64,000 nucleotides of DNA. Origin: Branchiostoma floridae (lineage: Eukaryota > Chordata > Leptocardii > Amphioxiformes > Branchiostomatidae). The stretch lies in contig NC_049979.1 in the NCBI RefSeq assembly GCF_000003815.2, positions 25,893,978-25,957,977 of the forward strand, read 5' to 3'. Within the stretch, counting starts at the first letter, position 1, and every line of letters starts with the position of its first letter. Shown piece after piece: positions 630 to 55,964 of the stretch. The position numbers and the translations under genes are program-made. A model generated the notes under the pieces. The model had not been told where the DNA came from and searched no databases. It was given only the letters and a program-made list of their open reading frames with translations.

Positions 630-3600
630 GTGAGTATAATGATGGCATTTCCAAAAAGGAAGTTTGAGACTTGGTCACACCTAGTCCTGGAGAGGTTGAT
701 TTTACTGTATGACACCTTAATTCAGGTGACTGTCAGTGTCTTGTCTTTCTCTGATCTTACACAGTACATGTATGAATAAAGAGACTCTTCTTTCACAACT
801 TTTGCTTTAATTACTGACCCTGACTGACATTTCGATGAGCATCTTCATCAATTCTGACTGGTTCACATTGTACTGCAGCATTCAGTCTGAGTGAACGTGT
901 CAGAATGCATTGCACTGAGGAAGGTAACAAACGGTCACCGAAATGTCAGTCAGGGAGTAAAGAAAACAAGGGTTGTCGAAAAAGGTCACTCTCTACATTC
1001 AGTGATGTAACAACCTGATGAAACTATTCACTGAGTACATTGTACTGTTTGGCAGAAAAATTGCAGCTGCCTCCTGGTTAACCTTCAGCACACTGAAATA
1101 GCCATTTGGCACCCAATTTTCTATCAGTTATGAGGTTAGGCAGCAGTGAAATGGTTAACAAATGTAAGAACAGGACCAAACTGATACAGAATGAAAAAAA
1201 ACAGGCTCAACTTTTCAATGATGTTGTTGTTGGCATCCGTCTGTCTCGGAAGACAATGGTAGGCAGACAGGGTGGGTTTTAAGGCGACATGGGTTTTTTT
1301 TAAGGTGAAGGAGGTGTGTGTACGTCCTTCTCCACCCTCTCGTCCACTGGCGCACTAGTCCTACAGGGGCAACTGTATGCAACGTGTAAGACGTCTTCAG
1401 CAGATGTACAATGTATATGTTATCATGTAGGAGTACATTTGTAATTGTCTGTAAATATTGCTTCTCCGTCAGACGCTGGACACAGAGGCAGGGAAGCAGG
1501 AGGACAAGCTGAGTACCTTGAGTCGACAGGTGGACTCCGTGTTTGGTTCACGTGGCGACGAGGCCAGGGTCGCCAAGAGTGATCTGAACGATGTTCAGGA
1601 AGAGATCACAAGAGTGAGTCTTGTAAAAAAAAAACTTGTTTGTGGTAGGGCCTGACCTTACATTTTGTGGAATATTCTGAGAGTAATACAGTATCTTCGG
1701 ACAAGATACATGTACATGTGGTGTTTTTGTCATATTTTAACAGGGTGATCAGGGAAAAGGTAGTCTGTGGCTACTTTATGTTTTTGCTGATGTGTTCTTT
1801 TTCTTCTTCCATCTTCTTTTGTCATTTTGAAAGTATTTTTTTTCCGATGCCTCAGGGACAAGCCTAATGGTATTAGTATTGTGTGCATGTAGCTTGACAG
1901 AAGACAAATTACTGGAAGGGAAACATCCTGCATTTTCTTGAAAATGTCGCTTGTCTAGTTACAAGATGATTTATTTCACCCATGTATCATGCAGATCAGA
2001 AACGATGTCTCCAAGGAAAAGAACAACTGCACCCGGATGCTTCCATATGTGAAGCGTTTCGAGGACGACACGGCAGAAATCGACAACTGGTTGTCTGACG
2101 CTGAGAAGCTGATGATGTCTCATATGGTTGACTCCACCTCTGCCAAATTCAACCAGAGGGTGCAAAACCACAAGGTTAGTATTTGTATACTAACTGTACA
2201 TGTACAGTAAGTTGCGTATTGGTAGAGATTGCAGTTCATCAGACCATCACATGTCTCAGTGGCCGAGCAGTTTAAACAAACTCACAGCTTGGCCATCTGG
2301 ATCTGTTTTCATGGATCTGTGGGCCCGAGTTCGATTCCAGGGTCGGCTCAGCTCGGACTCATTGTAAGGGATTGCTTTCGTCTTTTGAAACGAACGTAAA
2401 ACGGGGGTCCCAGCCTAAAATCGAACCAACCGTTCCTACCTGGCCTGACAAACTCTATGAGAATGAGAATCATTGGCCAATCTTTTCCATGACTAATATT
2501 TTTATCAACATTACATACGTATGCTCTTCGACAACTCATTTTTTTTCTATCTACACACTCAGGAGTTCTTCACCACCAGAAACACCATGCGTAACAAGCT
2601 CAGCAGCTGTAACAGTGACCTGAAGAAGATCGAGGGTCTGTGCCTGGACAACCATGACAAGTCACCCCTGCAGACTCGCTTCGATGACATCGACTCCAGG
2701 TTTGAGGTGGGTTGCAGTAATATGAAAAATGTCTAACATGTAAATCTACAGATTCCGAGAGTGTGCCATAGTAATATAGGAATCTATTTAGGGATGTCAA
2801 CTGCATTGTTTTCATCATCATCATCATAGTGCATCCGGTTACACCTGAAGTACAGTCTGAAGTACAATTTTTCCAGTATGATCTGTCCTTCATGGCAGAC
2901 ATTAGTCACATCAACTTATATAGTGTGGCGTAACAGCAGGGTGTTTGGCTCATAACCCGGATGTCCAGCGTTCAAGTTCGTTCATATGCCACCTATTTTG
3001 TGCTATTAGCATAAAAATACACTTTCTACAACTTTCCTATTAAAAAATTGGCTACAGTCCTGGGGCAATTACTGTCATATTGAGGCTACTAGGCACTGTA
3101 TACAGACTGCCATATTATTACAAACCTTTGTGATTTAGCCCTGCCTATATAAGCTACTCGCAATGCAGTCCCTGTGACGAGAGAGTTGTCAACCTACCCA
3201 ATAACAGTAAAAAAGGCATCATCAGTATCCATAAAGCCCCTCTGCACATCAAGCATTGAACTTGGACGACGTGTTGGCTTTTTACCGAGTTAGTCGATTC
3301 TTAATTCGTCCATATGCAAGAGATGCTACCATCTCATAGGAGATATATAAACATTAGTAACGGATAGAAGTTGCCCGGGCCCTGTCCAATTTGTGAGGGC
3401 CAGATTTTCAGCGAAAAATACAGCCGATGCTCGGGTGATGTTGAAATTCGGGAGGCTCTGACTGATCTACAAATTTGGCCATCAATCGCATGAATTGTAA
3501 AGCCCGCTTAATGACACCCTGTCCTTTCCTCAGGATGGCATGGCGCTGTCTCTCACCTGGGACGACAAACTGGACGATATCCAGGAGAACTGGAGGGACT

Positions 3601-6600
3601 TCGACAAGCGCACAGATGACGTCGGGTCCTGGTTGGACAAGGCCAACGACATCATGACTGACCGTGACCAACCGCTGGACATTCAGATTGCTCGCCACGA
3701 GGTAAGACACGTTTTCTTAAAGGATCATCGTCAAGCACAAACATAATGTTAATGACAGTCCTCAAAGGTAAAAATTAACAGAGCTTCAATTTACCCTTCC
3801 TCTTCTTGTCATTCACTATGATGTTGTTCATGTTGCAAAAATCAAAATGGTGTGCATTTTGTGTTCATGATCATGGAAAAATGCACCAATGAGCAAACTG
3901 TTTGTGTTCCTTGATAAAGGCAGTGGTAATGTGCCCTCTCCTTGTATTTCTGCATCTGATTCAGATTCTTGGTCTTTGACCGGCACTGAATCAGGTCTGG
4001 ACAACCATTTCCCCAGTCAACCATTGACAGCTGTAACAAAAAAACAGATTTTATGAGTCAAATACACAGCCAAAATATCATATTGAACAGTAAAAACTTT
4101 CATACTCCCTTGTGATGCAATGTACTATGATTTTTGCATCATGACCGTGACCCAATTGGAAGAATATAAATGCTAATGGGTCACGCCCATACACTCCATG
4201 TCTTATTCATTCCTGCACATTACCCATTCCATACTCTGTGATCCATTGTGTGTCATATTCTTCCCCTCTGCCTCTAACTGCTCTCCCGGACCCAAGATGT
4301 TGGTGGTGAGTATGACACAGCTAGCTGATCCGCCCCTCAGGCATCGGTACTGTCAGCTTTTATGGGAGAACCAGCCCAGTATTAACTTTGATGCTGTTGA
4401 TATACCAGTGAGAGAAAAGGTAGAATCTAAGGCCAGAACAAGTGATTCCGTATGGCAATAACTTTCATCTGACATCTTTATATGTCGCCTCACATCCTGC
4501 ACCCTCCTATAATGCAGTATACAAAGCTCACTTTGTATATTTTGCTTCATTCATAGCATATGTAGTAGGCCCCTCTTTTTTGATTTCTTTTTTAATTCCT
4601 TGGTTTGCATGTGTAATGTTGGTTCACCTTTATCCACGGGGTAACCGTTGTTTTTAAAAACAGGGTACTTAGCCGTATATCAAGTCAACGACAGTGGTTT
4701 CAAACTGCAGTTTTTTTAAAAATGGTTTTGCATTGCAGTTTGAAACCACCATTGACTTCATATTCCTAAACACCCTGTTTTTAAGAATAACGGATGAAGG
4801 TTACCCCAGCAATAAAGGTGAAGTAATGTTGAATTAAATGCATCATGTACAACATACTTTCTTGACCTACATGTTCATCACTTCATTTGGACTCTTGTAA
4901 CAAACTCTAGTTCTAGCTAGCTCTAAAGAAATGCTTCAGTACCAAAAGCACTGTTATTGAATTTCCATAATAATTCTTATTTTATTTTACCACAACAAAG
5001 GCTGAAAAAGTAATACAAAACAATACTAATTTTTAAATGCCCCTTAGTTAACAATTGGTTCTGTCACTCTTAGTTGAAGCCTACATGATGTTGGATGAAT
5101 GAATGAAGACCTTTATTGTACATTTTTGCTTTCTAACAAGCTAAGTACAGGTCAGGGTGGATAAGAATACATCTGGTGAATCTAAGTACAATTTCTGATT
5201 ACAATATCATACCTTATTCTTATCTGAGAGGCAAATATCCAAATGGTCATGTTAACATTGATGTTGGAGTACCTTGTTGTTCCTACTAGACATTCTTCAA
5301 AGATGTGGACTCTGACATGATGGAGGGACTGGTGCAGAGTGGAGAGAGGCTGGCTGAAGACATGAATGACCCTGAGAAGGAACAACTGCAGGACCAAATG
5401 GGCAGGATTGAAAACAAGTGGAAGGTAAAGAAACAGTTCTTCGAACGTCAACTTGACAAACATATTATAGAAAAATGCTAACACTTTACTTCCAACACTG
5501 AATTAAACTATAGGGACTCACCACTCTAGATTTTCGGTCAAGCTCCGTCGACCTTGTTCACAGAATGACCCTTCTATCTCCAACAGTGACGTCAGGAACA
5601 CACCACTTTTGCAGGAGGGGGTCATAAGTATCAGAAAGTCTATGTTGCCCCCTGTCTCTGTTCAGACAAACATGTATTCGTCAGAAAACCTGACAATCAT
5701 GTACATTTGTATACATGTATGTATAACTTCAGTGACTGAAAAATTGTTTTCCCAAAGAAAGACCACAACATGGTCAAGTGTATACCATTCAATAAGCTAA
5801 CAGTTTTGACAACTTTAAGCAAATCAAAGGCTTTTTTGTACCCTCATTCTGAGCTTCAAAACTTGTAGCTGAGGTTCTTTAAAGATGACAAGTTGTCACC
5901 AGCATCTGGAGTGCTAACTAGGTACCCCATGGGAAGCTCCCTGTTTCCCCAATTACATGGTTCATCTGGTAGGACTTACTTAAACAAACATTAGGACTCT
6001 TATGCCACAGGGGGCAAGGGTATTCAACTGACAGCAAGCTGGCAGCTTCCTGTGTTTCCATTGGTGGAGAAGTTGGTCACAGACATTAGCTACATTTTTG
6101 TATAATTCCGCTATACCCTTACATCATGTGGAAATGTATTCCAATATGCATCTGCTGATAATAGTAGGACAGAGCTTTGTGAGGTTACCCACTGTTTGAT
6201 TGTGAACTGACAGAAATGTAACTAGTCTGTATAACACAAACTCTGCTGTCAAAAGCTACTGGCCCTTCCTGGCAGAGGAGCCTTGGCAGATGTTCAGCAA
6301 ACTGCTATAAGTGAGATTTAATCAGGCTAGAATGTATCGGTATTGGGTCAAAGGCATCTGAAAGTCAGTAATTTTGCACAGTCTTGCTTGAGTAAAAGTT
6401 GCTTCAACTTGTTAGCTACCAAGTGTTGCAAGTAGTTTAACAGTAGACAACATGTCACAAATGTGTTGTCTAGATCTTCTGACCGTCATTTTAACAATAG
6501 AGACATGCATGAGAGAGCCACCTATGCTAGATTGAACAAAGTATCGGTTGTGCCCTTCGCAGGATGTGATGTACCAAGCACCCATTGCCCTGATGAAGCT

Positions 6601-9600
6601 GAAATTCCGCAAGTCCCAGGACCTGTATAGGGAGACTGTAGACAAGGCGAATAAGGAGACGGACAGGGAATATGAGTTGTTGGTAAACCCATCGGTGGAC
6701 AGGGACGACCTCCGTCACACTCATGAGGTACTGCAGTCTCTCTCTACTTTGACTGACTCATACTCTAGGAATCTAGGAATTTAAACTGAGATATCGATAC
6801 ACTACTATACTAAGTTTTGCCGCTGGTGAGAAGCTTACATATGACATTTGCCATATTTCTTCAGCTATGTACTACTGTAAATGCAGAAATATTCGTGGTG
6901 GTTTTTATATTCACGGTTTTCGCGGTGGCCACTTTACCGCGAACTTAAAACCACCGCGAACATTTTTCCATTATAGTTTTTGACTACAATCTATGGCGCT
7001 GCTACGAATTTAAAACCACTGCGAAAACTTCATTTTCCTGCTGCCGTGAAATTAAATCCCCTTGAACTTAAATACATTTACAGCACATTCTACATTGTAG
7101 AAAGGCATTGAATTAAGCTGATCCAAACCAAGGTCCATGCATGTCAATCTGACCAGGCCTATGTTTACATATAACGGAGGATTCAGTTTTCATATCCATG
7201 CATGCCAGTGCCACATACAATCTTAGAAGAGCCATTTATTTTTGTAATCATCATGCTCCTGAATTTTCTGTCGCTGTCCCTGTATTGGACATTTACCTTG
7301 AATTTCAATTAATTCTTGTTTTCTTATGATTGCCTTTAATGATATCGTTTATTGAAATTTAATATGAATATGACAGTTGCTGTGAGTGACAATACAACTA
7401 TAATGCTAGTTCACCTTTATCCTTGGGGTAACCTATCTCCGTTGTATTAAAAAGCAGGGTATTTAGTGCAATCATACCAACGAAATTTGAGTTCAAACTG
7501 TTACATTTTGAAAATATCTAAAATTGAAACAACCGTCGACTTCATATCATTGAAAATCTGATATCCCTGAAAAGCAACGGATATAGGTTACCCCGCGAAT
7601 AAAGGTCAACTAACGTTACTAACTACTGTCTGTGATATCCTTAGGGCCTGTACCTCAGGGAGCCAGAAGGCTTCATACCAACTGCAGAAAGGCACGTGAG
7701 TGACATGGAAAACTACAGCCGGGAGCTGGTACAGTACAGTGTGGATGAGATGTCCCTGGTGGGACCTGCTAAAGATAACAGGGAGCACTTTGAGGGTGTG
7801 AGGAAGGAACAGCAAGTGTTGTGGGAAAAGTTGAGGAATGCAAGGGTGAGTAGCACAAGTATATGTGTATGATTGTATAGTCTGTGGTATTCCAATCCAA
7901 ATGTTTCTAAAGAGTGTAATATACTATTAATTTTCCTCCTATGTCAGAAAAATTAATACAGTTACGCTTTCTCTGTTTTCTGTTACTAACTACAAATGTG
8001 CAATGTATAATATACATTCTAATTTATTAATTAATTGTATAGTCAGTGGGTGTTTTACACAGTTTTCTTGAAGTCACAATTTAACAATAAGTTGTGTCTC
8101 TTACTACTCCGAACTCTCACCTCCCAACATTGGTCATCTGCTGATGGTCAACCCCACAGACTGACCAGGAGGGTAAAGGTCCAGGAGGATATCAGATTTC
8201 AACTAACGTTACACAGGTGCCTAAACTTCTTTTAACTATTCTTTTTCTGCGTAACTAAAGTTCGATTCTTATGTATGATATCCTCTTGTGTGTATTAATT
8301 AGAATTACTGTTCCCCATAACTATACTTTTAAGTGATGAAGAAGATATTTAATATATTGTTGCATGCTCATGTTTGACTAATTCTGACAAGATTCAGATA
8401 ACTGAAGGTGATAAGTGATTAATAGAGCTGAATTTAAGATTAAGATTTTTATTCCTACTTTAACATTTGTGTCACCAGTTGGATGAACTGATTAACTGGA
8501 AATTTTTAAACAGTTTTCCTGGTGGGAAAGATTGTAATGTAACCTCCTTAGTAGTAATCCTTTCCATGGCGCTATGTCAGGTACCTGGAGGTCATGGAGG
8601 TCAGGGCCTTGATGGTGTCTATGGTCCCAAAGGATACCCCGGAAAGGTGCCTAACATGATTTCACGACAGCCTATGCTTGCATGGCACTTAAAGAGTTTT
8701 GATGCAGTCTTTCATTTTTGTTGTAGGGCATATACATGTAAGGTGCTTTGTTTCCATACTTTTGAATTCTCTATATTGTACAACATGGAAGAAACTTTTT
8801 TCCTGATTTCTTCCTATTCCTAATTTTTCTTGGTGTATTAGTGGCTTGGCGACATGTACCTTAGGCCTGCTGGTGAGCTGTGTTGGTGATATCATATTTT
8901 GAAGCATTATTTACTGATAAAACAAACCCTTGTCCATCACAGGGTCGCCAGCCACCAGATTACAACAGCGTGGAGGGAGGGTACGGAATTGACGGCAATC
9001 AGGTGCCAATCATTTCTCAAAGTACACGTGCCCCTCCCCTGATTGACATCTTCATTCCCTCCTCTCGCTGACTTACATTTCATTCTTTCAGGGAATCATG
9101 CGGCAGGGTGTATCTATCTGCTGCTGCTGCAATGTTACTGGTGTTCTCATCCTTTAACTCTGGTTGGAGGACGCATACGTTTAAATGGATATACTTTTCT
9201 ATTGTTGGGTTCTACAGAGGTGATATTGTTGAGCATCCAACACTTTCTGAGAGAGCATTAATGGTCTAAAATGATCATAAGAATGATCAAACCAATCAGT
9301 TGCTCATCTGTTACCCAATGATGGCTGTCTTTGAACCATTGCTGAACTGAGGTACTGCTGGGAGACTTTCTATTATAAATGGTACTTCATGTATTTGTGG
9401 TTTATTTCCTACCTCAGCAACCTCAAAGATATGGTGCTTTGGACAGAGGTGGTAGATATGGTGGCGTCCCATCAAGGCTGTCCTATCAGGTGCCTGATAT
9501 TTGGGTTCAAGCTGTCTGTCTCTAAGCTTTCTTCTGGATGTCTCTCACAATTATCTGAGATGCTGCATTTTCCCCACTAAGTTGTTTGCCAACTGTGTGT

Positions 9601-12600
9601 GACTGTGATATTTTGTTATTAGTTATAATATAGCAGGATGCTGAATGTCATGTATACTCATGTATACTCATGTATGTCAAGTCTTGCATATCACATTGTG
9701 TCATGACATCAGTTATCTGTATGATAATGGGCGTTTAAGTGATAACAGCAATACATGTTTCTCCCTTCATCAACTCATGATCATATTCTGGCTATTCTAC
9801 ATGTACATCCACATTACTATATAATAATTTATCATTATTGCTTATCATCATTTCATAGGGATGTTAATTTCTTCTCTGTTCATTAATAACCCATTAATAT
9901 GATGAGAGTAGGACAACATTTTAAAGACAGACTTACGTGCAGTACTCAATACATAATATTCTTTAAAGGATGTACCATACGTGTACATTTGTATCTCACA
10001 TCCTCGTTTACATACGATATCCTTCAACAGAAGAACATCATATAACGTTACATATATATAGAGAGAGATATCTGAAATGTTACATCAACATGGGAGTGTA
10101 AGGTTCTGTTTTCCTTTCCCCCTCGGTGCCCCCCAGTACCCCCGGGGATACAGACGACCAGATAAAGGTTACAGATATGGTGGTGTTCCCTTCAATAGGA
10201 CCAAGCAGGTGCCCTTCTAGTCATGTACTCTCTTTCTTCTCTTGCATAGTTTTATTAACTATTACTAAATGATTCTGTCTTGAAATAGAAAACTTCTGTA
10301 CTGTTCACTAGTAGAGCAGGATATAGGTGAAAGCTGCTGACACCAATTGAATGCATTTTTTTGAAAATGATCTTTTTTTATGGACCTTTTTGAGGCATTC
10401 TCTAAGATTGTCCTTTTGGGGTTTTGTTTGGTGTCTTTGCAATGTCTTTTTCTTAGGACATGCTGATTGTCTTGCTAAGAGATTGGTAATGTCTTAGATG
10501 TCTGAGAATGGCAAACAGCTCTATATGAATAGTATTTTCTAATGAAAACAATGAACAATTCTATATTCTATTAATTTAATGAGGGCAGCAAATGTGTGAA
10601 GAAAAGATGTAAACCAAAACGTCTATTGCCAGTTAACAAGAAAAAAGGTAGATTTCGTTCGTTCAGAAATGTCTAATGCTCGTTTATTTCTAAAACATAT
10701 TCAGCTCTACTAGTGATCTCTGTTATTGCATGTTTTTGGTGCAGTACTCAATGTAGTGTGCTATACATGTCTGAGCTACATGATAATATTCTGAGCAGAT
10801 GCAATTAAAAGTTAGTAGTAATTGACACCCTAATGATAATCTGGGCATGCTTCTATAAAGCTTTTGTGGCATTTCCTCTATGCTTTTTTGCTGAGGTCAA
10901 CGGTTTTGATGCTTGCTTAGAGACAGATACTCACAGTGTTGATATGCATGACATAATTGCTTTGTTCCCCTCTAACTGCTTTGCCAGCCTGTGGAAGATG
11001 GGAAACAGGGAAAAGGTGGTGGTGATGCTGATGCTGAGAGCAGTGCCTCAGATACTCCATCTGATCAGGTGCTCATCAGTAGTGCTTATCCTGCATCTGT
11101 ATCTAACGCTCGTTCACCCTTATCCGCCAGATAACCTATATCCGTTGCTTTTAAAAACGGGGTATTCAGGGATGTCAATTCTACGGATGCTAGTTTCAAT
11201 GTGCAATTTTTCCAAAATATTGTAATTTGAAACCACCTTCCATCGACTTGATAATCCTAAACACCCTGACTGTTCTAAATATGACAGATATACATTGTTG
11301 TATATATATTAGCCAGTATAACCACCCTTCAGTATATTACACCAGCTGTTATGCTCTTTGCTCTGTATTTGCCATTTATCTTTCCTGAAATTTCTCGAAA
11401 CAACCTGCACTATCCAGAACGTGAATTAATGATCTGAATTCTCTTTAAGTATATGGAATAAAGCCTGTAGCTAAAATCCTCATGCAAGTACCCTGCTCGG
11501 AGATGTTAGTTCACCTCCCAGGAAAGTGTAGTTTTTCTAATGCCTGTAGTGAATTTTAGAAGTGTCCTTTTACAATTTGAATAAGAAGCATGATGTTTTT
11601 GTATTGGGAAGCATCTCATAAACTGTACTCAAATTTTTAAGACATGCGAAACCATCATGACATGAGTAGGCAATGGCAGTGGTCCACACCTCAAAGCTGT
11701 TTTTGGCTTAAAATACGTATTTGATATCTATTTTTTAAATTTACATGTAGCACTGCTTTGCCTGGCAACTTTCACCCCATTTCTAAGCTTTTTTTGATCA
11801 GATACTAGATGTGTATCTTGACCATACAGGGGTATTTTGCTTATTTGCTATTAATTGCTCTTATCCTTCAATGCTTTGCTGGCAGCCACCCAAAGAAGAA
11901 AAGCAGGAAATTGTTGAACCTGAGGCTGATACTGTAACTGTTGCTGTTGAAAGCAGTGATACAGTCCCAGCAGATTATCAGGTGCTTTAAAATCTGCTCA
12001 ATGCTTTGCTATTCCCTTCAGTTCAACACTTCACTTTATATATTTTTTAAAGAATTTGCTACATACATGTGCATGCACAAAAGGCCTTGCTGTACCTCTA
12101 CATTTTTGTCCATGCTGGTAAAGATCAGCATTATAGAACATATGATAATATATAATATTATAACAAAAACAAGCATTGCCAAACAGTTTTTTTTAATGTC
12201 CATACAGTTACATGTAGCTTAGCCCTAGAGGACGTACTTACAATAATGTACACTTACTAGTAGAAAAATACAATGTATGTCCTTAAAAAAAGTTCCCCAT
12301 GTCCATCCAAAGAATATGGGACCTTCCTTTGTGTCTTTAGATTAGAACGTAGGAGAGATTGGACTATATATAGCTAGGACACCCAAAATCTGGATCATTT
12401 TGTGTTACACTTTGTGCACAGCAAAATGGAATCTACTTTCATGGCTATACATTGAATGCAGAAATGGTTAAGATGTCCAACATAGATGTAATGTGTCCCC
12501 TCTATGTGCATTACTAGACTCCTGTTGAACAGAAAGAGCAGGAAAATATTGTAGCTGAAGACAATGAAAGCAGTGCTACGGTCCCAGCAAGTGATCAGGT

Positions 12601-15600
12601 GCTTTTCCAAGCTGTTTGCAAGTGATACTGTCCCTACCCCTGACTCGCTTTGTTACTGGATACCATATTTGTAGCAGTTTACCGTTTCAGAGTAACTGTT
12701 ACATCAAATCTCTAAGATAATTTTGTATTATTGAATATAATAGAGTTTTTGGATTGCAAAAGTATAGCTCCTCTTCCTAGACCCATCTTGTAGCTGGAGT
12801 GAATAGACTTCTTCCTCATATGTTGAGTAGTTATGTTTTGTCATCTTCATCATATAAAAGCTTTAATGCCCTTAAAAAGATTCTACAAGCTTTGTTATGT
12901 TCCACTTGTAGCAAGCTGCACTGCTTCGTTTTGGTGATACAATTTTGCTCACGGCTTTTATAGAAATTGGCAATGCATGGTGCTAATTGATTTTTTTGCA
13001 CTGGTAGCAACCTGCTGAAGAAGAAGAAAATCAAGAAAAAGTAGAAGCTGAAGCTGACTGCAGTGTTACAAATATACCAGATAAACAGGTGCTTCTGCAT
13101 GCTAGCTGCTTCATGTGTTTGTTTTGTTGCTGTTGTCTTAATAATCAGCCACACTGGAAAAGTAGTTTTGAGTATCAGTGCAATTGTAAGGCACAGCTTT
13201 GTTTTATTGATACAATTTTGCTTGCGGCTTTCATAGAAATCGGTAATGCATGGTGCTAATTGATTTTTTGCACTGGTAGCAACCTGCTGAAGAAGAAGAA
13301 AATGAAGAAAAAGTAGAAGCTGAAGCTGACTGCAGTGTTACAGATATGCCAGATACACAGGTGCTTCTGCTAGCTGCTTCATGTGTTTTGTTGCTGTTGA
13401 CACCGGCAAAGTAGTTTTGAGTATCAGTGCAATTTTAAGGCTTGTAGCAAGCTGCACTGCTTTGTTTTAGTGATACAATTTTGCTCACGGCTTTCATAGA
13501 AATTGGCAATGCATGGTGCTAATTGATTTTTTGCACTGGTAGCAAGCTGCTGAAGAAGAAGAAAATGAGGAAAAGGTAGAGGCTGAGGCTGACCGCAACA
13601 TTACAGATATGCCAGATAAACAGGTGCTTGTGCTAGCTGCTACATGTGTTAATGCTGTGTCACTGTTACCTTCCTGCCACACTGGCAAAGTCAAATTAGT
13701 CTAGTAGCAGTAGCAGTCTAGGTGTAATTGTAAGGCTTTTTCGTCAACTATTTACTGAGGTTATAAGAAACACCTTCACAATAGAAAAAGGCAGACAGTT
13801 GCCACATCCTCTTGAATCTTAACATTTTCATTCAATTTGAGAGGTAGATTTTTCCTTTCTGTTGTTCCATGGATCACTGTCCTCTAATGCTCCACAAACA
13901 TTTACTAAACGTCCATTTCTAAAAGGTACACTATGTTTGATATCTTTAGCAAATCGTGTGTCACAAACATTTACTAAACCATCATTTCTAAAAGATACAC
14001 AGTGTGTGTGTATTTGATATCTTTAGCTAGTAGTGTGTATTAAATCCTTACTAACATCCCTTTTTGTGCTTTGGTGGCTCCTAGCAACCCCAGGAGACTG
14101 GTCGTCCAGATAAAGGTGCCGGATATCATGGTGCCTCTTCTGGAGATACTCCCCAGCAGGTGCAGATATTATTAATTGCAGCAATTTGCATGTCATATCT
14201 TGACACATTTTGCAAGCGTGCTAGCTTTGCATGCCATGTTGCGATCAAAGTAGTACTTAAATTTTGCGAGCTACAAAAGTTTTTTTGTGTTTTTATGATT
14301 TTAGCTTCTAGTAGTTGGTAGTTTTAGATTGTGTTTGGCTTATATTTTGCGTTAACATGAATGATATTTTTTATATGGTGGCTTTGTTTATTTTTGCATG
14401 GGTGCAGCTTTATGTTTTGTTTTGCTTGTTCTCTAGTTACCTGACAGTACTGACAGTGGTGGTGGTGGTGCCAGTGATGCTACCATCTTTGCTACAGTTA
14501 TCCCCAAAGTACAGGTACTGGGGCAGCCTTAGCTAGCTGCCATCTGTCACAAACAAGCACATCAATAGCTGAAAGATATTCAACTTTTAAAGACCTTAGT
14601 TGATACCAAGAAGTAGAGCAGTCAAGCTACTATAGATAATAAAGAAAACAATATGATACATCGATCACACGTCAACAGTGATTCTTCAGGTCTTAGTTGT
14701 GTGAAACTGGCAACGATTCATGAAGAAAAGTTTGAGACTTTTCTGACACAGTTGTGCATTTTGTAATTGTATCTTTCTTGTCTTTCTCTCCTGTTACTTT
14801 CCCTGTACATAGCCTCATGCAGTCAGTCAGGACAGGTGGAGTGATAACTTTCCTACTCATAAGGTATCACACTGGGATACTTTTTGTCGTTGTCGTGGTT
14901 CTTTTCTACTGGCTTGCTGCTGTTCCTTTCACAAGTTTATCAAACCACTTAGTGAATGTAGTTTTGTTGTTGTTTGTGGAAATCATTGTGCCATTCTCAG
15001 CTTATAATGTTATACCTGTCTCTCATTATGTAGAAAGATAACGTTAAGTTTCAACTTTTCCATTGAAACTTAGCATTGTTGTTTCACTGTAAAAGCCTTT
15101 GCTTCTTTCTGCACACAATGCTGCTTGGTGCTCCGCTTCAGCCACCCCCATACCCAGGGTCCGCCGGCATTTCACATCTAGGAAACGTCAGTTCCACCTC
15201 TGAGTATGAGGTAGCCATTGGTCATGATGTAGTTGTGTTGTTTGTTGTAGTTGTGTTGTGCAAGCCTGTTCTTTCTTGCTGTTGTACAGTGTGATTCAGG
15301 CAGTCATAGATTTCATCACTGACGTGTCCCAAGACCCAATGCTGCTAAAGCTATAAGTGCACAGCCCGCCGTACGTGCAATTTGCCCGAAGGTTTTTTTT
15401 TTAGGCCACGTCCGCCACGTATTTCTGAAAACATTCAGGTTTTACAAGGCATGCATGTCGCAAGTGTGTACTGACATGTACGGGGGGCGAATCTGCAGCC
15501 CGATGGCAACACAAAGTTTTACCTGCACGTAAAGTTCTACAACGTCACGTGTCTGCGTGCTCCCAAATCCGTCGGATTCCCCATGAGTTTGTACGGAGGC

Positions 15601-18600
15601 GGTACTTACCACTTACGGATCCCAAAAGATTGCCCATGTTTGGCACGATGACAGCACGTCATATTTGCACATACGGCGGGTTGTGCCCTTAGCTTAAGAC
15701 TCTGCCACCCTTTGCTTGTTGAATTTGCACTGAGTCATTAACATATAATACACGTGTGCTGTATGTTTGAGTGTTTCTATTCTATCTGTCCTACGTGTGT
15801 ACAAATGTACATGTCCCCCTCCGTCTTTACTGTAGCCACCACTAGAGCCCAGACCAGAAGCCAGTCTAGATAGAAGAGACATATCAGCTAAACTCAATGA
15901 GGTACATGGTATCCTCCTATCATGATACATTGATTTAAAACCAACTTTTTCCCTGTCATTCTTTTATTGTTATTGACGTTCCCTTTCCAGCCACTTGTCA
16001 TCATTTTTACCAGTTAGTTTATGACTACATAAAGATTTTGTTTTAATCTCATGACGTCTTTTGTACTATTCTGGTATTGTTACTGGACAGTTGTTTGGAC
16101 AACAGGTACAAACTTATAAGTCTTTTTCTTATTACTTATTTCTTAAAGTCTTGCAGATGTCTGTGCTTAACTTAAGGGTGTAAAATTTCACTTGGTTAAG
16201 ACAAGCGCATCTTTTTCGAAGGCAAAATTGCATGTTTTATTTCCATTTGTTATTGACTGTCTTATATTCAATGAGTGTCATTGAGTTAAACATATAACAC
16301 TCAATACATATCTCAGCAGTTCGATTTGTTGCTTCCATCATAATTTTTTATTTTCACATTATCTTTCTTGAAATGTTAATCAATTAATCTGTGCTTTGAT
16401 TTAATTTGATTCCTTTTAACTGAGTTGATTTCATTTGATACGCTTCCTCTGATCCTTTCTGTCCGTGGATGATCCCAACTTTTGCGAATATCCTGCTTCT
16501 GTTGCGCACACGATACAGAAACGACACCCGTGCACTGCCATTGAAAACCGCGAACCTCGCTATACCTCCACACTCTACATGCAGGTACATTGTACACACT
16601 GCTATCCACCCACCACTACTCTACATTTCACATGAACAGATATTATTGTAATACGTATTTGTGCTCTTTACACATTTAACTTTCTGTTTTGCAAACAAGG
16701 AATGCTTTGTTTTCTTTATTCTAACAAAAGCTTGTGCCAAAAATAATTTCTAATTGGATGTGTAGCATGCTCTGTTAGAATTAACATACATGTATCTTAC
16801 CCTCTACTATCATGCTACCATTTAAGTTGAAAGTAATCAAGTTCAAGTTGAATCATTAACGGCAGTGTAAAAATTAAAGATCGAAGTTTTCGATACAATA
16901 CAATTATTATTATACCAATTTCTGAAGTTAACTGTCTGATTCTGTAATGAGTTTGAATATCCTGTAATGTCTTCCTGCATGCTGCTTGGATTTATGTGAT
17001 TAGCCATTCAGCCATCCTGGCCGCAACAGTGACAGAAAGGACATGCATGTCAGATTTGCCCCCGATCTTGAGGTAAAAAGAAGAAGAAGATACTTTGCTC
17101 TATTGTGGACAAGTCCCATCTAACGCTGGTTCACCTTTATCCGAGGGTGACTTATATTCGTTGTTTCTAAAAAAAAGCGTATTTAGGGATATGAAGTCGA
17201 CGGATGGTGGTTTCAAATCGGAACATTTTGAAAATATTGCAAATTTGAAACAACAGTCCACAGACGTAATACTCCTAAATGTGCTGTTTTTAAAGATTAA
17301 ACGAATAAAGGTCCCCCACGGATAAAGGTGAACTAGCGTTATATTGATTAAAACTTTTCTGATGGATGCAATAATTTTCCTCTTTAAACTGCATGTTGTT
17401 ATAAGAATCTAAAAGAAAATCTTGTGTTTTCTGCTGCTTTGGATGGAAGCAGACACCAACACATCCAGACAAGAAATATAACCTGAGTGGTGAACCCACC
17501 AACCTTGAAGCACCCATAACCATAGTAGTGTCTGAGAAAGAGGGAGATGCTATTGTTGTGTCTCCAGACAAGGTGCCTTAAGACATGTCATCTACACTTA
17601 ACTTGACTAGTTCTCACTATTCTCTTTCCTTGTCTTCTGTACTACATTATGATTAATGATGTGAATGTCATAAACATAAACATGGGTCTACACATTGTTT
17701 GATAACCTTCACTTTCTGTGATAACTAGACTAGTCTAACTTGCACACCATCTTACATATTATACATGTTCCATGAGTCACGTTTTTGTCTTCCCCTCATA
17801 CCATGCACACCAAGTCCTCTTGGTACAAAGGATATTATATGAAGGTACCGTTCAGTTTTCTGTACTGTTAAAGTAGCACTTCTGTTGCATATTATTTTCT
17901 ACTCAAAGTAAACTTGTTAACTTAGCACATTGAAGCTAAGTCTCTAGGAACCGAGTGTGATTCTGTATTTATGGATTTAGGCAGCAGGGAAATAGTTAGA
18001 AAATAGAAAATAGTACATAATTTTGTAGCACTATTAGAAATAGCTCATAAGAAACAATCCCAAGGTGTACTGTTGACATCTCTCTACTGTTAGTTTCTTG
18101 GTCTGTGTGATGGTTCTAATATTTTCATGTTGCAATTCAGACTGAGTGTTTTTCTATCTATGTGTCGTTCACCCAATCCATGCCTGTTCCTCACAATTCA
18201 TGTTGTCTTGCTTACATGCTTGGACGCAGATCTCGAACCCCATGGATCAAAACGTATGGAGACAAAACCGACACTTCCTTCTCTTGTGTTTGTGCAGTTG
18301 TGTCTATCAAGTAACGCTAGTTCACATTTATCCGTGGGGTGACCTTTATCAGTTACCTTAAAAAAAACAGTACATTTAGGAAATCAATATGAATTCTGCA
18401 GACAGGGGTTTCAAATTTGCAATATTTTCAAAATATTCCAATTTGAAACTACCGTCCATTGACTTCATATTCCTAAATATGTTTTTTCTCACAAACAACG
18501 AATATAGGTTACCCTCGGATAAAGGTGAACCAGTGTTAACATGTATGTTTTAATGTCTTCCTATATGTGAATTCAGACTACACTTTTTTGTCTTGTCTTC

Positions 18601-21600
18601 TTCAAAGTGCAGTTTGTGTTGCTCTGCGATGTTGGTTATGGCTAACAGTTTCAGACTAACCCCGTTCAATGTCGTAACAAACACACAGATTTCTGGAATG
18701 AAGGGTCGGGGAGGTGAAGACGACGACAGGGATAGAGACAGGGATGGCCTGCAGCGGTCTGGAGATGGTGCCTCACAGGTTGCCAATCCAATATCCATAT
18801 CCAGTAGATGTAGCCCCAGGCACCTTGCCTTCTATCCCAGCACACAACACTTCAGAATCTGTAGTATGAATGGATTTCTTCAGTGTTACAGACTTGACTT
18901 TCCAATCAAATCATCGACAAAGTCTGTCCTCTTTCTTGTTTATTGTTTGTTGATATTTTCAGGCTCCTGGGTAGCCCGATTCAGTTTTGACAAACTGATT
19001 TTTATCGGGGCCCAGGTACACATACAAGGAAATATCTAGCAAAGCAAAGCATTTTTATACACTTCTGTAGTATAAATGACTTGCAGCGTTAACGCTAGTT
19101 CACCTTTATTCGCGGGGTAACCTTTATCCGTTGTATTTAACACCAGGGTATTTCGGGATATCAAGTCAACTGATGGTGGTCTCAAACTGCATTATATTGA
19201 CAAACAATGCAATTTGAAACCACTGTTCATCTACGTGATATGCCCAAATATCCTGGTTTAGGTACAACGCATATAGGTTACCCCGCGAATAAAGGTGAAC
19301 TAGCGTTACAGACTTTACTCTTCAATCAAATCAAACTGTCCTCTTTGATTCTTGCAAAGCAAAATAATTTTATATGATATATTTGTTCCCTTTTCACTGT
19401 ATGATCTGATCTGATGAATATAAGAACTTGAATGAGAGCTGTATGTCCTTACCTAAATGTCTTGTGATAAATGTATCAGTAGGGTTATAGTATTGACTGT
19501 ACTTCCCATGTAACACCATAATGGTTGTGTTATCCTAGAGGGGTGGTGGAGATGGCTATGGACCAGGACAAGTTGTTGGAGGCCGGGATGGGTATAACGG
19601 AGGCGTTGGTGGTCAAATCAATATTCACGAGGTGGATGTGATTCTCAATATTTTCTAACAGTTAAACTTCTCTTAACATCTATCCTTGTTAATTTGCTGG
19701 TCCCGTTGGACATAATTACCATTAAATAATACCGTAATATAAGAAAATTCAAATGATTGTTTTCAATCATAATGTTAACACACTGACCTGATCTACAGAA
19801 GTTTGTGTTTGTTTTTTCAAATAATAATATTTTCAATGGACATCACTGTTTCTTTTTAATTTAAGTAACAACTTTTATTTTCTGTATCTTGTTATACCAA
19901 CTTGTCTTTGTGCTGTAAAAATTGCATGTTCTGGAAACAACTCTCTCTCAACATTTATACCAGGTCCTTCACATATTCCTCTTAGTCTCTCTTTTCATAT
20001 TACTATGTTTTAATGTTTCTGTCTGAGCCTTTTGCCAGTAGTTCACTCATGAGGCTTATATCTGATTAGAGCATCTTTAAGTGAAAAGAGTACTCTTGCT
20101 CAGGTTTGGGTTGCGTAGAGTTGTAGAATCTCATCTATTTGATCAAGGTTGTAATCTGGGACAGCTTGCTTTTCTTCCCCTGAATCATTTGAGCATACTT
20201 GAATTCAAAAAGGGCAATGCTTCTACCACTTTGCTTTCTCTTTATCTTGCAAAAGATGCCTCACATGTACTTTGGTACATTGAGTGCAACTTAGGATTTG
20301 CTATAGTTGATTTTTTCCTATATTGTCTTTTTCTCAATACATGTAGTTTATATATTGTAACTTTCTGCCAGCATAATTGTCATGGTACATGCACCTTTGA
20401 CTACGTTTATGCATGTAACGTTACGTTTTGTTGTGTGTTATTGTTTTTGTTCACCTTTCTTTGTTTTTACAGGTGTCCCTGTCCTGTTTTGATGTTTGGT
20501 AACATTTCTCTTGTCCTGATCTGCGTCCTGCACCTTTATCTCCTTAACTCTAATATTGCGTGCAAAAGGCCATAGCTTGCTGCTGGAAGAGTTGCAACAC
20601 TAACAACTGTGATATATTTTGCAGTACTGACGTTCCATTTGCAGGTTCTCTTTCATGCTTGGGTTCACCTATGAGCTGCAACTTGACACTCAGCTTAAAA
20701 TACTTTGCCACAAGCATAGAGTACAGCCTATTAAGCTGTTGCCTCCTGTCTTTGCACTGATTTTAAACAACAGTACAATCATGCTAACATTACAAAGTTT
20801 TAACCATAGCTTTCCTGAAGTAGTGAGCATTATATTTCTGCCCTACATGGTTAGCTGGTTAGCTGCCCTTACATAGCTGACCCCTTTTTTCCTCTACTGA
20901 AGTCTTCCGCTTGACAAGTGTATTCTGCTTGCAGCTGTAGTCATGCATATAGCCTAATATACTTCTTTCCCCAGCGATTATGCTTTTTGGTGCAACAGGG
21001 GCTGCAAAGGGAGACTAACACTGTTCTGAAAGGGCCGGGATGTTACCACAAAACAGGCATGGGTCATTTTTGCTGGCAACCTGCCCTGTCTCATTTCTGG
21101 GGAATAATGTCATGACAGTGCAAACCTGATTGGACCTTGCATCTCCTGATATATTGAAATATGTTCTTGTTTTATTTACGCCAACTTTCCTTCTTGCAGC
21201 ACAATTGGAAACAACAAGAATCAAAAAGAAATCAAAATTGTTTTTGCTTCACGATCATTGAATTTTCAGTCATACTGAATTCTCAATGCACTGGCCATGA
21301 TGGTCTTCCCCATGATCTATGGCTGGGGACAGGTAGGCTAACTTCTTGACCCTAACTCCTGTTTTGTCCCTACCACACAGACCATTGTGATCAATGAGTA
21401 TGAGCAAAACGTGTATCAACAGGGAAAAGGTGGCGGCTACGGAACCGGGTCCTGGAAAACTAGACCAGAGGAGATTGAACGAGCACACAGGTATGAATGT
21501 CTTTGGGTTTTTAGTTGTTTGGCCACAAATCTACATGAATAAGTCTTATGTGTATAATATTATATTCAGTTCTTTGATTGGGCCAATGAAAATGTTATGA

Positions 21601-24600
21601 TAACCTCAAAGTAAAAACTATTACCTGTTACGTAGTACCTGTAATATCTAATATACATAGTATATTCTGTGATAAGTATGTACTATGGACTAGTATAGAA
21701 ACACTGTAAGCTTTTGCATTCACTATATATATATTCAAGTCTTCTAAAATTTCAGCATTGCAATTTTTTCATCATTCATGTTCACAGTGATGTTTGTTAC
21801 CTGGACTGTAACCTTCACTTAAAAGTGAATGCCATGTCGTGCCCTTTCCCCCAAACCTCTATATTACCAACCCACAATTATCATGAAAAGAGAAGAAAAA
21901 AGTGGAAAATATGTCACTGATAGTTTTGAATTTGATTTTATTCAAACTGCAGCAAGGACAATACAATTGTGGACACCAGGCAGCTGTTTTAACACAAACT
22001 ATCACAGTGATGATAATACGGTCGCCTGATCATAATCTCCTTTCCTTGGCACAGGTGGAAGCAGTTCTTTGAGAAGAAGGAGGCTATGTTGCAAGAGTGT
22101 ACCCAGATTGATGACACCTTGGATGGGGAAGAGCAGCTGGAGATCACTCCACCCAATGTCAAGTCAAGGGATCATTTGTTTGAGGTACGTGTAGTCGGTA
22201 TTACCCACCTTGTAGAAAATGGTACAATTGGTAGTGCTTAAGCCCCGTTTACAAATCCAGAATTTAGCTCGGCCGAGTTGTCAGCGAGCTCTCAATTACG
22301 AGGAGGCATGACTCTGATGCCTACGAACAAATGGCAGAGTTTCTTCGTCGGCATCAGGNNNNNNNNNNNNNNNNNNNNNNNNNNNNNNNNNNNNNNNNNN
22401 NNNNNNNNNNNNNNNNNNNNNNNNNNNNNNNNNNNNNNNNNNNNNNNNNNNNNNNNNNNNNNNNNNNNNNNNNNNNNNNNNNNNNNNNNNNNNNNNNNNN
22501 NNNNNNNNNNNNNNNNNNNNNNNNNNNNNNNNNNNNNNNNNNNNNNNNNNNNNNNNNNNNNNNNNNNNNNNNNNNNNNNNNNNNNNNNNNNNNNNNNNNN
22601 NNNNNNNNNNNNNNNNNNNNNNNNNNNNNNNNNNNNNNNNNNNNNNNNNNNNNNNNNNNNNNNNNNNNNNNNNNNNNNNNNNNNNNNNNNNNNNNNNNNN
22701 NNNNNNNNNNNNNNNNNNNNNNNNNNNNNNNNNNNNNNNNNNNNNNNNNNNNNNNNNNNNNNNNNNNNNNNNNNNNNNNNNNNNNNNNNNNNNNNNNNNN
22801 NNNNNNNNNNNNNNNNNNNNNNNNNNNNNNNNNNNNNNNNNNNNNNNNNNNNNNNNNNNNNNNNNNNNNNNNNNNNNNNNNNNNNNNNNNNNNNNNNNNN
22901 NNNNNNNNNNNNNNNNNNNNNNNNNNNNNNNNNNNNNNNNNNNNNNNNNNNNNNNNNNNNNNNNNNNNNNNNNNNNNNNNNNNNNNNNNNNNNNNNNNNN
23001 NNNNNNNNNNNNNNNNNNNNNNNNNNNNNNNNNNNNNNNNNNNNNNNNNNNNNNNNNNNNNNNNNNNNNNNNNNNNNNNNNNNNNNNNNNNNNNNNNNNN
23101 NNNNNNNNNNNNTTTCCCCATCGCCCCCCTGAGGAGGAGAGCTCGCTGACAACTCGGCCGAGCTAAATTCTGGATTTGTAAATGGGGCTTTATGACTTGT
23201 AAGAGTGGGGTTCAAGGGACACCAGCTGATCAGTCTAACTGGACTCTGTACCTATTAGCCTAGCAGTTATTGCATTGGGTTAGTGAGCTGGTGGTCATAG
23301 GGTTGAATCCCGGGAGCCAGGGGACTGTACTTACATGGCCAGTGTACTGATTCACTGGTTCCTATGCTGGCCATGTGAATAATGGCATTTTTTTAGGCAC
23401 CACAAAACGTACCACACAGGGATATTGAACTCCAAGGACGACTCTTAAAAAAGAAAATATGGTAAGGGTAAGGGTGATAGTGGGCTTCAAGCGCCACCAA
23501 CTGAGCAGTCTAGCAGGTCCAAACCTTTCAGTGTTAGTGCGTTGGGTTCGTGAGCTGGTGGGCCCGGGTTTTAATCCCAAAAGCCAAAAAAACTTTCTCC
23601 ACACAGTATGTGGTGGTTGGCTGGTTCCAAAGTAATATGTCACATGTTTTGCTTAAGAGTATATCACAAGCCTTTCGACACTTCACACTCTGAACGTATT
23701 TGATAGACTATGGTGATAAAGAAGATAGATAGATGAAATTTAATGTTTACTGTGTGCCCCCTCTAGCGTCTAGATCGTGAGTTGAAGCAGAACAGAGGCG
23801 AGACCCCAGATCTGAAGGACATGGGCAGTTGGCTGGAGAGGGAAATGCCTCATAAGAAAGACGACATCGTGGGAGACATTGCCTTTGTTGAGAAGGCGCA
23901 AGATGAAACTGAGGTAGGTGGTATCAACTGTGACTTTCTGTAAAGCCATGTTAATTCAATTTCATGGATGACACCCTCATACGGCAAAGAATCGCTTTAA
24001 GATACAGTAGAATCCAGTTAATTGCACAACGGATTAACACAAACTTCTGTTAACTGCACGGAATCCCCAAATCCCAAACCAGTGCGGTCCAGCTAGATAA
24101 CTTCGCATTATTGCACCAGCCTGATAATTGCACGAAATTCACTGGCAAGTAGGCTGTGCAATTAAGCGGCTTCTACTGTATACAAATAATCATGTAAATG
24201 GTCAGAAAGGTTGAATTGGAGATTCTTTATTTTTGTTCTTTCACATCTTCTTTGACTTTGGAAGTGACTTTGGCATTCTATAACTGTTTACAATGAGTAT
24301 AGTATCCATCTGTAATACATGTTAATTGCTCTTTTTGCGGCTACATTGTACTTTGTATGATTTGTAGCATGGTCAAGAAAGTTTCTTTGGAAATGGCCCA
24401 ACATTGATGCATGTGCGCATTGATGTCATCCATGTAATCAAAGCAATTCAATTGGCCTTATGTCGTAAAGAGGATTAGTGATTGTTTTCAATGTTTAACC
24501 TGTTTGCACTTGATGACAATGAAAACATCTTCTTCTGGCAGGATCACTTGCGAAGAGCAAGAGAGGAGCACGAGAACCTCCTGACAAGGGTCAACGACTT

Positions 24601-27600
24601 CTATGAGTGCAAGGAGAGGACCCACAAGTGCATCGACAGGGCAGAGCTGGTGCTGAGGAGCAGGATCTGCCAGAGGCCTGCAGACATCGCCAGTCAGCTA
24701 GACAAGCATGAGGTCAGCTCTACATTTTTTTTTCATTCACAGGCCTAGGGTTGCTCAAAGCAATTAATGCCATTTAACCACTTCTATAAGAACTAAGTGT
24801 AGCCAGTGCAATGGCCTAGTGGGTAGAGTGTTTGCCTTGCATTCGGAAGGTCGTGAGTTCGATCCCGGCCGAGTCATACCAAAGACTTTAAAAAATGGTA
24901 CATGCTACTTTCTCTGCTTAGCACTCAGCATTCGGGAAAGAGTATGGAAGTTGAACACACACCACTACCAGTGGACTAGCCCCCTGCTGTAGTGCTGAGT
25001 GTGTTGTGTGTGGCCCAGGGCTAATGAAACAGAGATGGGTACCGCCCTATGTGCCATCTTGGCACGGGAAGGGTTTAACTTTTTTAATAAGAACTAAGTT
25101 GACAGGTGTTGGAAATGATTATGTAAGGAGATAGCGATGAACATCAGTTTTGAAGGCTTGAAGATTGTATACAGGGGGGAAACAGTTATCATTGAGTCAG
25201 AGAGAGTTCTATAGTTTTGAAGTCTGGGGAAAGAAGCTGTTGCTGTATAGAAGTGTTTTGAGACTCAGGTATAATGATGTGAGCTAGAGGAAAATCTTCT
25301 AATGTTATGTTAATTAGGATATCAAGTCTTATTCTATACACCTATTTTGTACTTTGTGTAACAGTCGTTGCCATACATTGTACCATGTACAAATGTCGAG
25401 CAATAAAGTTCATCCTATGATAGTACACTGCAAGGCACTGCTGCATTTGCTACGGATGTGGATGAACGTTTGTGTGCTATATTTCCCAATATTGCAGAAT
25501 GCAGAGGGAGAGCTTTCCAACAACATGCCGAAGCTGGACCTGATGAGTAAGAGAGGGACTGAACTGGTGCAGGATCTCAGGTCGTCCAACCTGTGGAAGA
25601 CAACCGAGATTCGTAAAGAGATGGACCACACCTCACACAGGTGGATCGAGGTAAGGCTGAACATTTTAACCATACTGTATTCTCATAAGGATATTTCAGT
25701 TTTCTTTTGCACAACCAGTTAAGTCTCAGTTAAGTTTGCTTACATGTACATTTCAATGTCTATCAGACATCTTCTTCAGAGCTTCTGACTGATCGAGTGC
25801 TGCTTCTCATCATATAGCTAATGTAGGTGGCACTTTTGCGACAAGAAACACGTGCCACCAACATTTGCTACACATGGCTGCAAGAGGTAGCACTCCAGTC
25901 AGAAACTCTGAGGAAGATGTCTGATAAACATTGAAGCGTAAGCAGGCCAGAAATATTGGCTGTGCAAAAGAAGACTTCTATATCCTATGTTCTACCAACC
26001 TGAATAATTTTTTTCGGATGTACTCGACAAGATTTTGAACCAAAATTTAATTTATGATATTCAGGTGAGTGAGCAACTGCATGACAACAAGGATGTGCTG
26101 CGGAACATGGAGAACATCTGGGATGAGATGTACAACATCAACAGTGACTTTGAGGACTGGTTCAATGGCCCAGTGGAGGACCTTCGCAAAAAGCTGTACA
26201 GCATCAGCGATGCCAGCGAAGTGCCCGACATGCAGAGGAGGCTAGATCTGTTCCAGGTGGGTTAGATGCTCATTTAATAATAATAATATCTGGTGTATTT
26301 TGCCAGCCAGTAGGTACCCAATGTGTTGAGCAATGAGGCTGTTTAACGTGGTCGAGGCACCTCCTCGAGCACGGGACCCCCGTTTTACGTCCCTCCCGGA
26401 AGACGATTTCGTGGAAAGCTTCGTGAAGCTACAGCAATCCGGACATCCTTGGTTGGTCCCCAATCCAAGAACTGTCCGGACCGCGCGTTGCTTAACTTCC
26501 GAGATTGAGGTATCGGGTGTACCAACGCGCCACGCGGCCGTAGCTAAACACCAAACCAATTTGATTATTTTCAAGTACTAGTAACTAAGTTCTTTCACGA
26601 TTTCACCATCATGACAGAGGTTAAGATATACAGTAATAGCAGCCCTGTGAGAGAATATCTGTACAGCTTATTCCTTTTCCTGCATTGCATCATCGTTTTG
26701 ATCGACAATTAGGCAAATCTTGAACAAACAGGACATAGTAACAGTCTTTTCCGGAAGTGGGACTTCTGTTTTTAACTTTTTAGTTGCAAGTTTGACTGTA
26801 ACTGTATCTGAGCCATCACTTTTGGGTTTAGACCAATTTTCTACCTAACACTTTCAGTGGGGAACAATACATCTTTCTCCATTATTTCACTCACTCACTC
26901 ACTCACTCACTCACTCACTCACTCACTCACTCACTCACTCACTCAGTCCTAGTTCATTTTATTTATCCATGTCCACATTACAATTTGTCCATTTTATTTG
27001 TCAATGTCCACATTACAATTCCAAAAGAAGAAACCTTTTCCTTGAAATCAACAAAACTTTCTGAAGCCTCTCACACCTTACTGACCAACGAAAAACCATC
27101 TTCGTCCAACCCCTTTATCTATGACAATGTTGGTCAATTCATCTCCCACTGCGTACAGAAAAGAAGTCAAACCAATGATATAGCTCAAGTAGAAGTAGAT
27201 TTAAAATAATAAATTTCCCTTTTAATTGTTATTTCTGTTTTTATGTAAGCCCAGGATTGGTCAATGAAGGTTAGACATCCAGGTAATAAGATATGCCAAA
27301 AAGCAGTTACTGGATATGATTTGTATAGAAGACCAGTTTCTTCCAGATCACTTTAGTATCACTGACAAAAACTAGTGGATGCTAGTTGAAAGTCTGACCA
27401 TTTCCAAAATCGGTTGCTTGAGTAACTGCTTTTTGGCACAAGCCCAGGATAGCCTGAAAAGCAGGTGTAGTCTGATCTGAGTTGTACATTCCTGGTAAAA
27501 TAAATAAAGTGAAACTGAATTGATCTGTAATTCTTATTTTCCTTCTTTGTATAAATACCCAATATTTTCACTCTATTTGACAGGATGAGATAATTGACCG

Positions 27601-55950: not shown

Positions 55951-55964
55951 GACGGAGTAGGCTG

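Follow-up and report, generated by a model that had tools for sequence, protein, structure and literature searches.

Can an actin-binding protein with spectrin-type rods carry a linker whose length is set by splicing, in a layout like that of the titin PEVK segment? The question is raised by a stretch of 64,000 nucleotides of the Branchiostoma floridae genome (contig NC_049979.1, positions 25,893,978 to 25,957,977, below called the window), in which an initial annotation had placed 21 consecutive phase-0 mini-exons inside a spectrin-repeat gene. The mini-exons are confirmed, and we put at roughly 0.55 the probability that the gene encodes an actin-binding protein of nesprin-like build without KASH, in which duplicated weak-donor mini-exons form the disordered linker and are co-regulated as a splice cassette, with a Muscleblind-type factor as the probable regulator. 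The gene anatomy, the donor class, the motif enrichment and the exon duplication on which this reading is built are all seen in the sequence.

To obtain a gene model, a home-made exon-chain search was run over 264 kb, the window with 100 kb of flank at either end; a minus sign marks positions upstream of the window start. A single gene is predicted on the plus strand, from about -13064 to a stop codon at 37105-37107. With the start codon assumed at -13047, the predicted spliced product has 2358 residues, arranged as two CH domains, a Gly/Ser-rich stretch, spectrin rod 1 (443 amino acids), a low-complexity linker (535), rod 2 (591), a Gly-rich stretch and a small tail. The linker does sit between two spectrin-type rods, as the description as a spectrin-repeat gene implied, but the gene is more exactly an actin-binding, nesprin-like one; the CH domains had been missed because they lie upstream of the window.

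The mini-exon array

In our model the linker (8160-19631, plus strand) consists of 21 mini-exons of 51-120 nucleotides (nt), all multiples of three and all in phase 0 at both ends (0-0); five are 81 nt long. They are listed here in order, with a slash at the exon-intron junction.

8160-8216, +, mini-exon 1: 57 nt, Gly-rich, CAG/GTGC donor
8581-8646, +, mini-exon 2: 66 nt, Gly/Tyr-rich, AAG/GTGC donor
8943-9002, +, mini-exon 3: 60 nt, Gly/Tyr-rich, CAG/GTGC donor
9418-9489, +, mini-exon 4: 72 nt, Arg/Gly/Tyr type, kin of 10137 and 14085, CAG/GTGC donor
10137-10208, +, mini-exon 5: 72 nt, Arg/Gly/Tyr type, CAG/GTGC donor, zero UGCU/GCUU within 80 nt
10988-11068, +, mini-exon 6: 81 nt, acidic, kin of the next exons, CAG/GTGC donor, 12 UGCU/GCUU within 80 nt
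11886-11981, +, mini-exon 7: 96 nt, acidic, PEVK(A) ratio 0.62, CAG/GTGC donor
12518-12598, +, mini-exon 8: 81 nt, acidic, CAG/GTGC donor; an in-frame acceptor at 12533 scores slightly higher
13008-13088, +, mini-exon 9: 81 nt, acidic, first of three recent tandem copies, CAG/GTGC donor
13280-13360, +, mini-exon 10: 81 nt, second recent tandem copy, CAG/GTGC donor
13543-13623, +, mini-exon 11: 81 nt, third recent tandem copy, CAG/GTGC donor
14085-14159, +, mini-exon 12: 75 nt, Gly-type, kin of 9418 and 10137, CAG/GTGC donor
14437-14514, +, mini-exon 13: 78 nt, CAG/GTACTG donor
14813-14863, +, mini-exon 14: 51 nt, low exon score (0.9)
15142-15210, +, mini-exon 15: 69 nt, Pro-rich start
15836-15901, +, mini-exon 16: 66 nt, Pro-rich
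16519-16584, +, mini-exon 17: 66 nt, provisional, placed manually, weak acceptor, missed by the automatic run
17004-17072, +, mini-exon 18: 69 nt, provisional, placed manually, weak acceptor
17453-17572, +, mini-exon 19: 120 nt, provisional start (17450 also in frame), placed manually, weak acceptor, AAG/GTGC donor
18689-18778, +, mini-exon 20: 90 nt, charged, Asp/Arg-rich, provisional start, placed manually (start at 18608 in the automatic run)
19539-19631, +, mini-exon 21: 93 nt, Gly-rich, provisional, placed manually, missed by the automatic run, found by tblastn with the linker

When the mini-exons are joined, their frame is free of stops over 535 codons, while the other two frames hold 13 and 56. 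The exon-chain score of the linker is 164.5 (18 exons, 17 of them 0-0, with 16 of the 21 mini-exons recovered exactly). With the same codon table, which was trained partly on the mini-exons themselves, the reverse strand reaches 16.3 and none of 40 Markov controls exceeds 13.8. A table trained on the rod exons alone still gives 60.4, compared with 10.2 on the reverse strand and at most 12.8 in the controls. It places just 6/21 mini-exons exactly and only 2/15 exons as 0-0, so that the phase is mostly wrong, and the phase-0 call therefore rests on the open joined frame and not on codon statistics. In a frame-blind test, each donor was paired with the best AG lying 30-150 nt upstream; the resulting length is divisible by three for 16 of the 21 donors, where 7 are expected (binomial P 7e-5; the donors were chosen beforehand).

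The existence, number, sizes and phase of the mini-exons thus stand as first described, and so does their low-complexity composition, Gly/Tyr-rich modules followed by acidic Glu/Pro/Val/Ala-rich ones. The remaining low-complexity stretches of the gene are single exons of 288, 366 and 471 nt, which argues that the splitting of the linker is not a by-product of its composition.

The last five exons are weaker. The acceptors of those starting at 16519, 17004, 17453, 18689 and 19539 are poor, and the automatic run found none of these exons with exact ends, as would be the case if the exon set were partly spurious, with a shorter linker of about 12-16 exons and chance open stretches making up the remainder. 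The same five share one open frame with the rest and lack the G at donor position +5 discussed below, although they were picked by hand. We consider a partly spurious set a serious alternative, still clearly on the less probable side.

Splice donors

Any subset of the mini-exons could be skipped without a frameshift, as had been pointed out. The arithmetic is correct, but it is no evidence for splice tuning, because the property is shared by nearly all exons of the gene: 50 of its 54 introns are in phase 0, and 19 of the 21 rod and Gly exons are 0-0. In a KASH-nesprin control the figure is 29 of 45 exons.

What sets the mini-exons apart is the donor. None of the 21 has a G at position +5, against 16 of the 21 rod exons (Fisher 2.4e-7); it is found in 8/11 upstream exons and in 31/45 exons of the KASH-nesprin control. 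The ends had been described as mostly CAG/gtgc, and indeed 13/21 donors are GTGC, eleven of them CAG/GTGC, while no GTGC donor occurs among 21 rod, 11 upstream or 45 KASH-nesprin exons. Between 8100 and 19700 the heptamer CAGGTGC is present 11 times on the plus strand, each time at a mini-exon end, and never on the minus strand. All 11 are preceded by an exon-compatible open frame and an acceptor, compared with 7 of 30 occurrences elsewhere in the 264 kb. Both splice sites score lower in the mini-exons than in the rod exons, the donor with 2.78 vs 4.18 (P 0.019) and the acceptor with 0.85 vs 3.42 (P 0.006). The special mark of the mini-exons is consequently a donor class without the +5 G, and not the phase.

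Motifs flanking the mini-exons

The core of most of these donors is UGC(C/U), which led us to consider the Muscleblind motif. The specificity of MBNL1 is described in PMC5041496 as YGCY and GCUU, conserved to Ciona and Trichoplax. To count the motif we used the sequence within 80 nt of the exons, without the donor hexamer and with only one of the three recent copies. The density of TGCT/GCTT is 2.43 per 100 nt near 19 mini-exons, 0.72 near 32 other exons of the gene and 0.92 near the 45 KASH-nesprin exons (P 3e-4), an approximately threefold enrichment that is found on both sides of the mini-exons. When the four richest mini-exons are dropped the difference persists (P 0.008). In the deep introns of the linker (>150 nt) the density is 0.87, the same level as elsewhere, and the enrichment is thus linked to the exons and not regional. 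TGCT is the top tetramer among those listed in an open comparison, and among 84 composition-matched tetramers TGCT ranks first and GCTT third.

The layout resembles that of Muscleblind-regulated cassette exons, in which UGCU/GCUU adjoins weak cassette-like exons on both sides. It differs in that a long array is found in one gene here, and that in most cases the donor itself holds the UGC(C/U) core. Together, the shared donor class and the UGCU/GCUU-rich flanks point to regulated splicing of the mini-exons.

The linker might also be tuned by another factor than Muscleblind, i.e. a pyrimidine-tract binder of the PTB type, Rbfox, or several together. YYYY is the top pattern when the flanks are compared with shuffles, and TGCATG, which we take to be the Rbfox core, occurs 9 times here and 8 times in the control set, which is much larger (log2 2.2). 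On the other hand, TGCT is the strongest tetramer, and TCTT and CTCT are weak (ranks 15 and 24). A different regulator is, in our opinion, a possible but not a favoured explanation.

Duplication of the mini-exons

Sequence similarity beyond that of shuffles (z above 3) is found for 16 of the 210 mini-exon pairs. Two kin classes are seen, one of Arg/Gly/Tyr type (9418, 10137, 14085) and one acidic (10988 to 13543). Within the acidic class, three recent copies of an 81-nt exon (13008, 13280 and 13543) form a tandem repeat with a unit of 263 nt. A 60-nt block spanning the exon end and the donor is common to five exons. No second copy of the linker was found among the scored candidates of the own genome (513 Mb in 431 contigs).

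Duplication on this scale could by itself have produced the array. The mini-exons would then be real but constitutive, never skipped under regulation, and their donor would go back to a single founder exon. The tandem unit and the 60-nt block fit such a history, as do phase 0 being a general trait of the gene and a U1 pairing that is not clearly weaker. Yet the only flank pairs above the likeness cut-off are those of the recent copies and one downstream pair (10988, 17004), while the donor class and the exon-near UGCU/GCUU persist beyond them. Moreover, the +5 G is missing in all 21 exons, across exon classes without detectable kinship. We regard a purely constitutive array as rather unlikely.

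Several observations weigh against a co-regulated cassette under a Muscleblind-type factor. In the mini-exon flanks YGCY occurs 60 times, compared with 50.1 +/- 4.7 in 300 dinucleotide shuffles (maximum 64), a mild excess, which leaves base composition to account for much of the signal. Runs made up of pyrimidines alone score as high as YGCY, YGCC as one half of the motif shows no enrichment in these flanks, and the counts are uneven, with 0 or 1 motif in 7 of the 19 mini-exons; in addition, the motif was picked after the donors had been seen. In predicted U1 pairing the mini-exon and rod donors do not differ significantly (-6.48 vs -7.46, P 0.17), and the likeness of the acidic-class donors may partly be descent, given the exon-end block. 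Across the three recent copies, exon and upstream intron are conserved to the same degree, and there are more amino-acid changes than silent ones. Selection on the peptide is therefore not evident, and the pattern fits loose constraint. The five provisional exons belong on the same side.

A side observation concerns the linker introns, in which all of the following copies lie. They belong to an element of about 220 bp resembling a miniature inverted-repeat transposable element (MITE), with terminal inverted repeats of 42-58 nt (TAACGCTAGTTCACCTTTATCC...), of which there are four copies, one partial.

11104-11268: MITE-like copy, partial
17118-17344: MITE-like copy
18311-18538: MITE-like copy
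19090-19308: MITE-like copy

Comparison with titin PEVK and proposed mechanism

The organisation of the linker had been compared to the titin PEVK segment. The likeness holds for the layout, in which many short frame-neutral exons (a trait also of most exons here) encode a low-complexity linker between folded segments, and for an exon array that derives partly from local duplication. It does not extend to the sequence. A PEVK(A) ratio of at least 0.54 is the criterion for finding titin PEVK exons in section 4 of PMC6469411, and just 4 of the 21 mini-exons reach 0.54. The modules are acidic or Gly/Tyr-rich, and no homology was found in any search made. The Ig/FN3 setting of titin is absent, as Pfam gives CH and spectrin domains only.

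The linker is rich in Gly, Glu, Pro, Asp and Ser. The basic exons 9418 (+3) and 10137 (+6), together +9, adjoin the six acidic exons from 10988 to 13543, with a net charge of -43. Such modules could instead be adhesive or phase-separating segments, Arg/Tyr stickers facing acidic blocks, and not a spring. Further Gly/Ser/Tyr-rich stretches flank both rods (see below), which would suit this role; the argument is one of composition, and we judge it improbable.

For the preferred reading, a splice-tuned linker, we propose the following steps. The linker would have grown by exon duplication into 21 mini-exons. In the protein, actin would be bound by the CH pair, with the two rods as stiff spacers and, between them, a disordered and mechanically compliant linker of 535 residues. 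Weak shared donors and motif-rich flanks would place the mini-exons under common control, and a Muscleblind-type factor would probably set how many of them are spliced in and how many skipped in each tissue. The choice of exons could set the linker length anywhere from zero to 535 residues with the folded parts untouched, and could also shift its charge between basic Arg/Tyr/Gly and acidic modules. A further-reaching version, which we put forward only tentatively, is that a PEVK-like device has evolved independently in a chordate nesprin-like protein, one splicing factor setting both length and charge of an actin-to-cargo link by tissue.

If this is true, splice-tunable linkers are not peculiar to titin-like sarcomere proteins, and a cytoskeletal nesprin relative has the same layout with another chemistry. 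The donor signature (CAG/GUGC, no +5 G) is confined to one block of one gene and offers a direct test of the joint control of weak exons. A literature search, whose coverage left most subscription journals outside, found no publication on this gene arrangement. What is new here is a nesprin-like gene that lacks KASH and has both a PEVK-like exon cassette and an unusual donor class; the kinds of component were already known.

Probable relationship to nesprins

To place the gene among the spectrin-repeat families, we compared its folded parts with Pfam, with solved structures and with its own genome. The exons of the two rods and of the C-terminal part, as predicted by the exon-chain search, are as follows.

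435-7845, +, rod 1, first four exons, phase 0-0: 435-629, 1473-1613, 1995-2174, 2563-2706
435-7845, +, rod 1, last four exons, phase 0-0: 3534-3701, 5290-5424, 6563-6727, 7645-7845
21381-34349, +, rod 2, exons 1-6: 21381-21490, 22055-22184, 23767-23913, 24542-24712, 25498-25650, 26065-26256
21381-34349, +, rod 2, exons 7-12: 27584-27775, 28330-28455, 29126-29275, 31300-31464, 32092-32268, 34290-34349
34583-35053, +, Gly-rich stretch: GGGYGG loops, 31% Gly, one 471-nt exon
36913-37107, +, last coding exon: 64-residue tail and stop, predicted small beta domain

Ten of the twelve rod 2 exons are 0-0. Pfam identifies a tandem CH actin-binding domain (two stretches, 1e-31) and Spectrin in both rods (1.1e-13 in rod 1, 1.1e-18 in rod 2). 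The family Spectrin_SYNE1 passes its cut-off of 35 bits in rod 1 (43 bits, 5.2e-11), and in rod 2 it stays below with 26.6 bits. When the rods are cut into nine overlapping pieces, two of the nine alone pass the Spectrin cut-off, and the end of rod 1 alone (exons at about 6563-7845) has no family match. Among solved structures, nesprin-1 (6xf2) is the only clear match of rod 2 (6.7e-9), while MACF1 and plectin are the best matches of the CH pair.

Apart from the gene itself, the own genome has its best CH2 match on the minus strand at C1:18707196 (the window being C1:25893978-25957977), 50% identical over 66 residues. A KASH exon at C1:18618373, on the same strand, lies about 89 kb downstream of it. 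Spectrin-like exons run through the 40 kb adjoining this KASH exon, and the CH2 is located about 50 kb beyond the traced ones. Over the same stretch, the CH2 of our gene scores 186 against the KASH-side CH2 (32/62 identical) and 152 against MACF1 (29/60). Because this margin is modest, and because the CH2 exon ends of the two genes differ in phase, we consider it likely, but not proven, that nesprins are the nearest relatives.

No KASH domain is found near the gene: the genome search gave three KASH places, all elsewhere, and the gene model ends at its stop with no C-terminal KASH. Besides C1:18618373, KASH exons were seen at C1:2907971-2908141 and C2:2643197-2643382, which means that the genome holds at least three KASH genes.

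With the nesprins (SYNE1/SYNE2, Drosophila Msp300, C. elegans ANC-1) the protein shares an N-terminal pair of CH domains separated by a Ser/Lys-rich insert, and spectrin rods, for which Spectrin_SYNE1 (rod 1) and the nesprin-1 structure (rod 2) are the best matches. KASH-less nesprin isoforms are known in the literature. The gene differs from the nesprins in having no KASH nearby, in its short rods split by the mini-exon linker, and in its Gly-rich stretches and single-copy tail. Spectraplakins, dystrophin/utrophin, alpha-actinin and beta-spectrin also combine a CH-CH pair with spectrin repeats, but the linker, the Gly-rich stretches and the tail match none of their Pfam domains. Calmin has been linked to the nesprin and spectraplakin families, and a KASH-less nesprin paralogue in a lancelet would bear on the split of the three.

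The stretches that flank both rods, at -2622 to -74 and at 34583-35053, are rich in Gly, Ser and Tyr, contain keratin-like GGGYGG loops and are encoded by large exons.

Other features of the window

Downstream of the gene, an exon resembling a Kv channel at about 41.8-42.2 kb, named by inspection, marks the next gene. At 48836-50598 there is a tandem array of a 60-bp unit (29.5 copies, 91% matches) that is open for hundreds of codons in several frames and on both strands, and which is probably a minisatellite and not a gene. On the minus strand, 55696-55965 is an open frame with what looks like a single predicted membrane span near its end.

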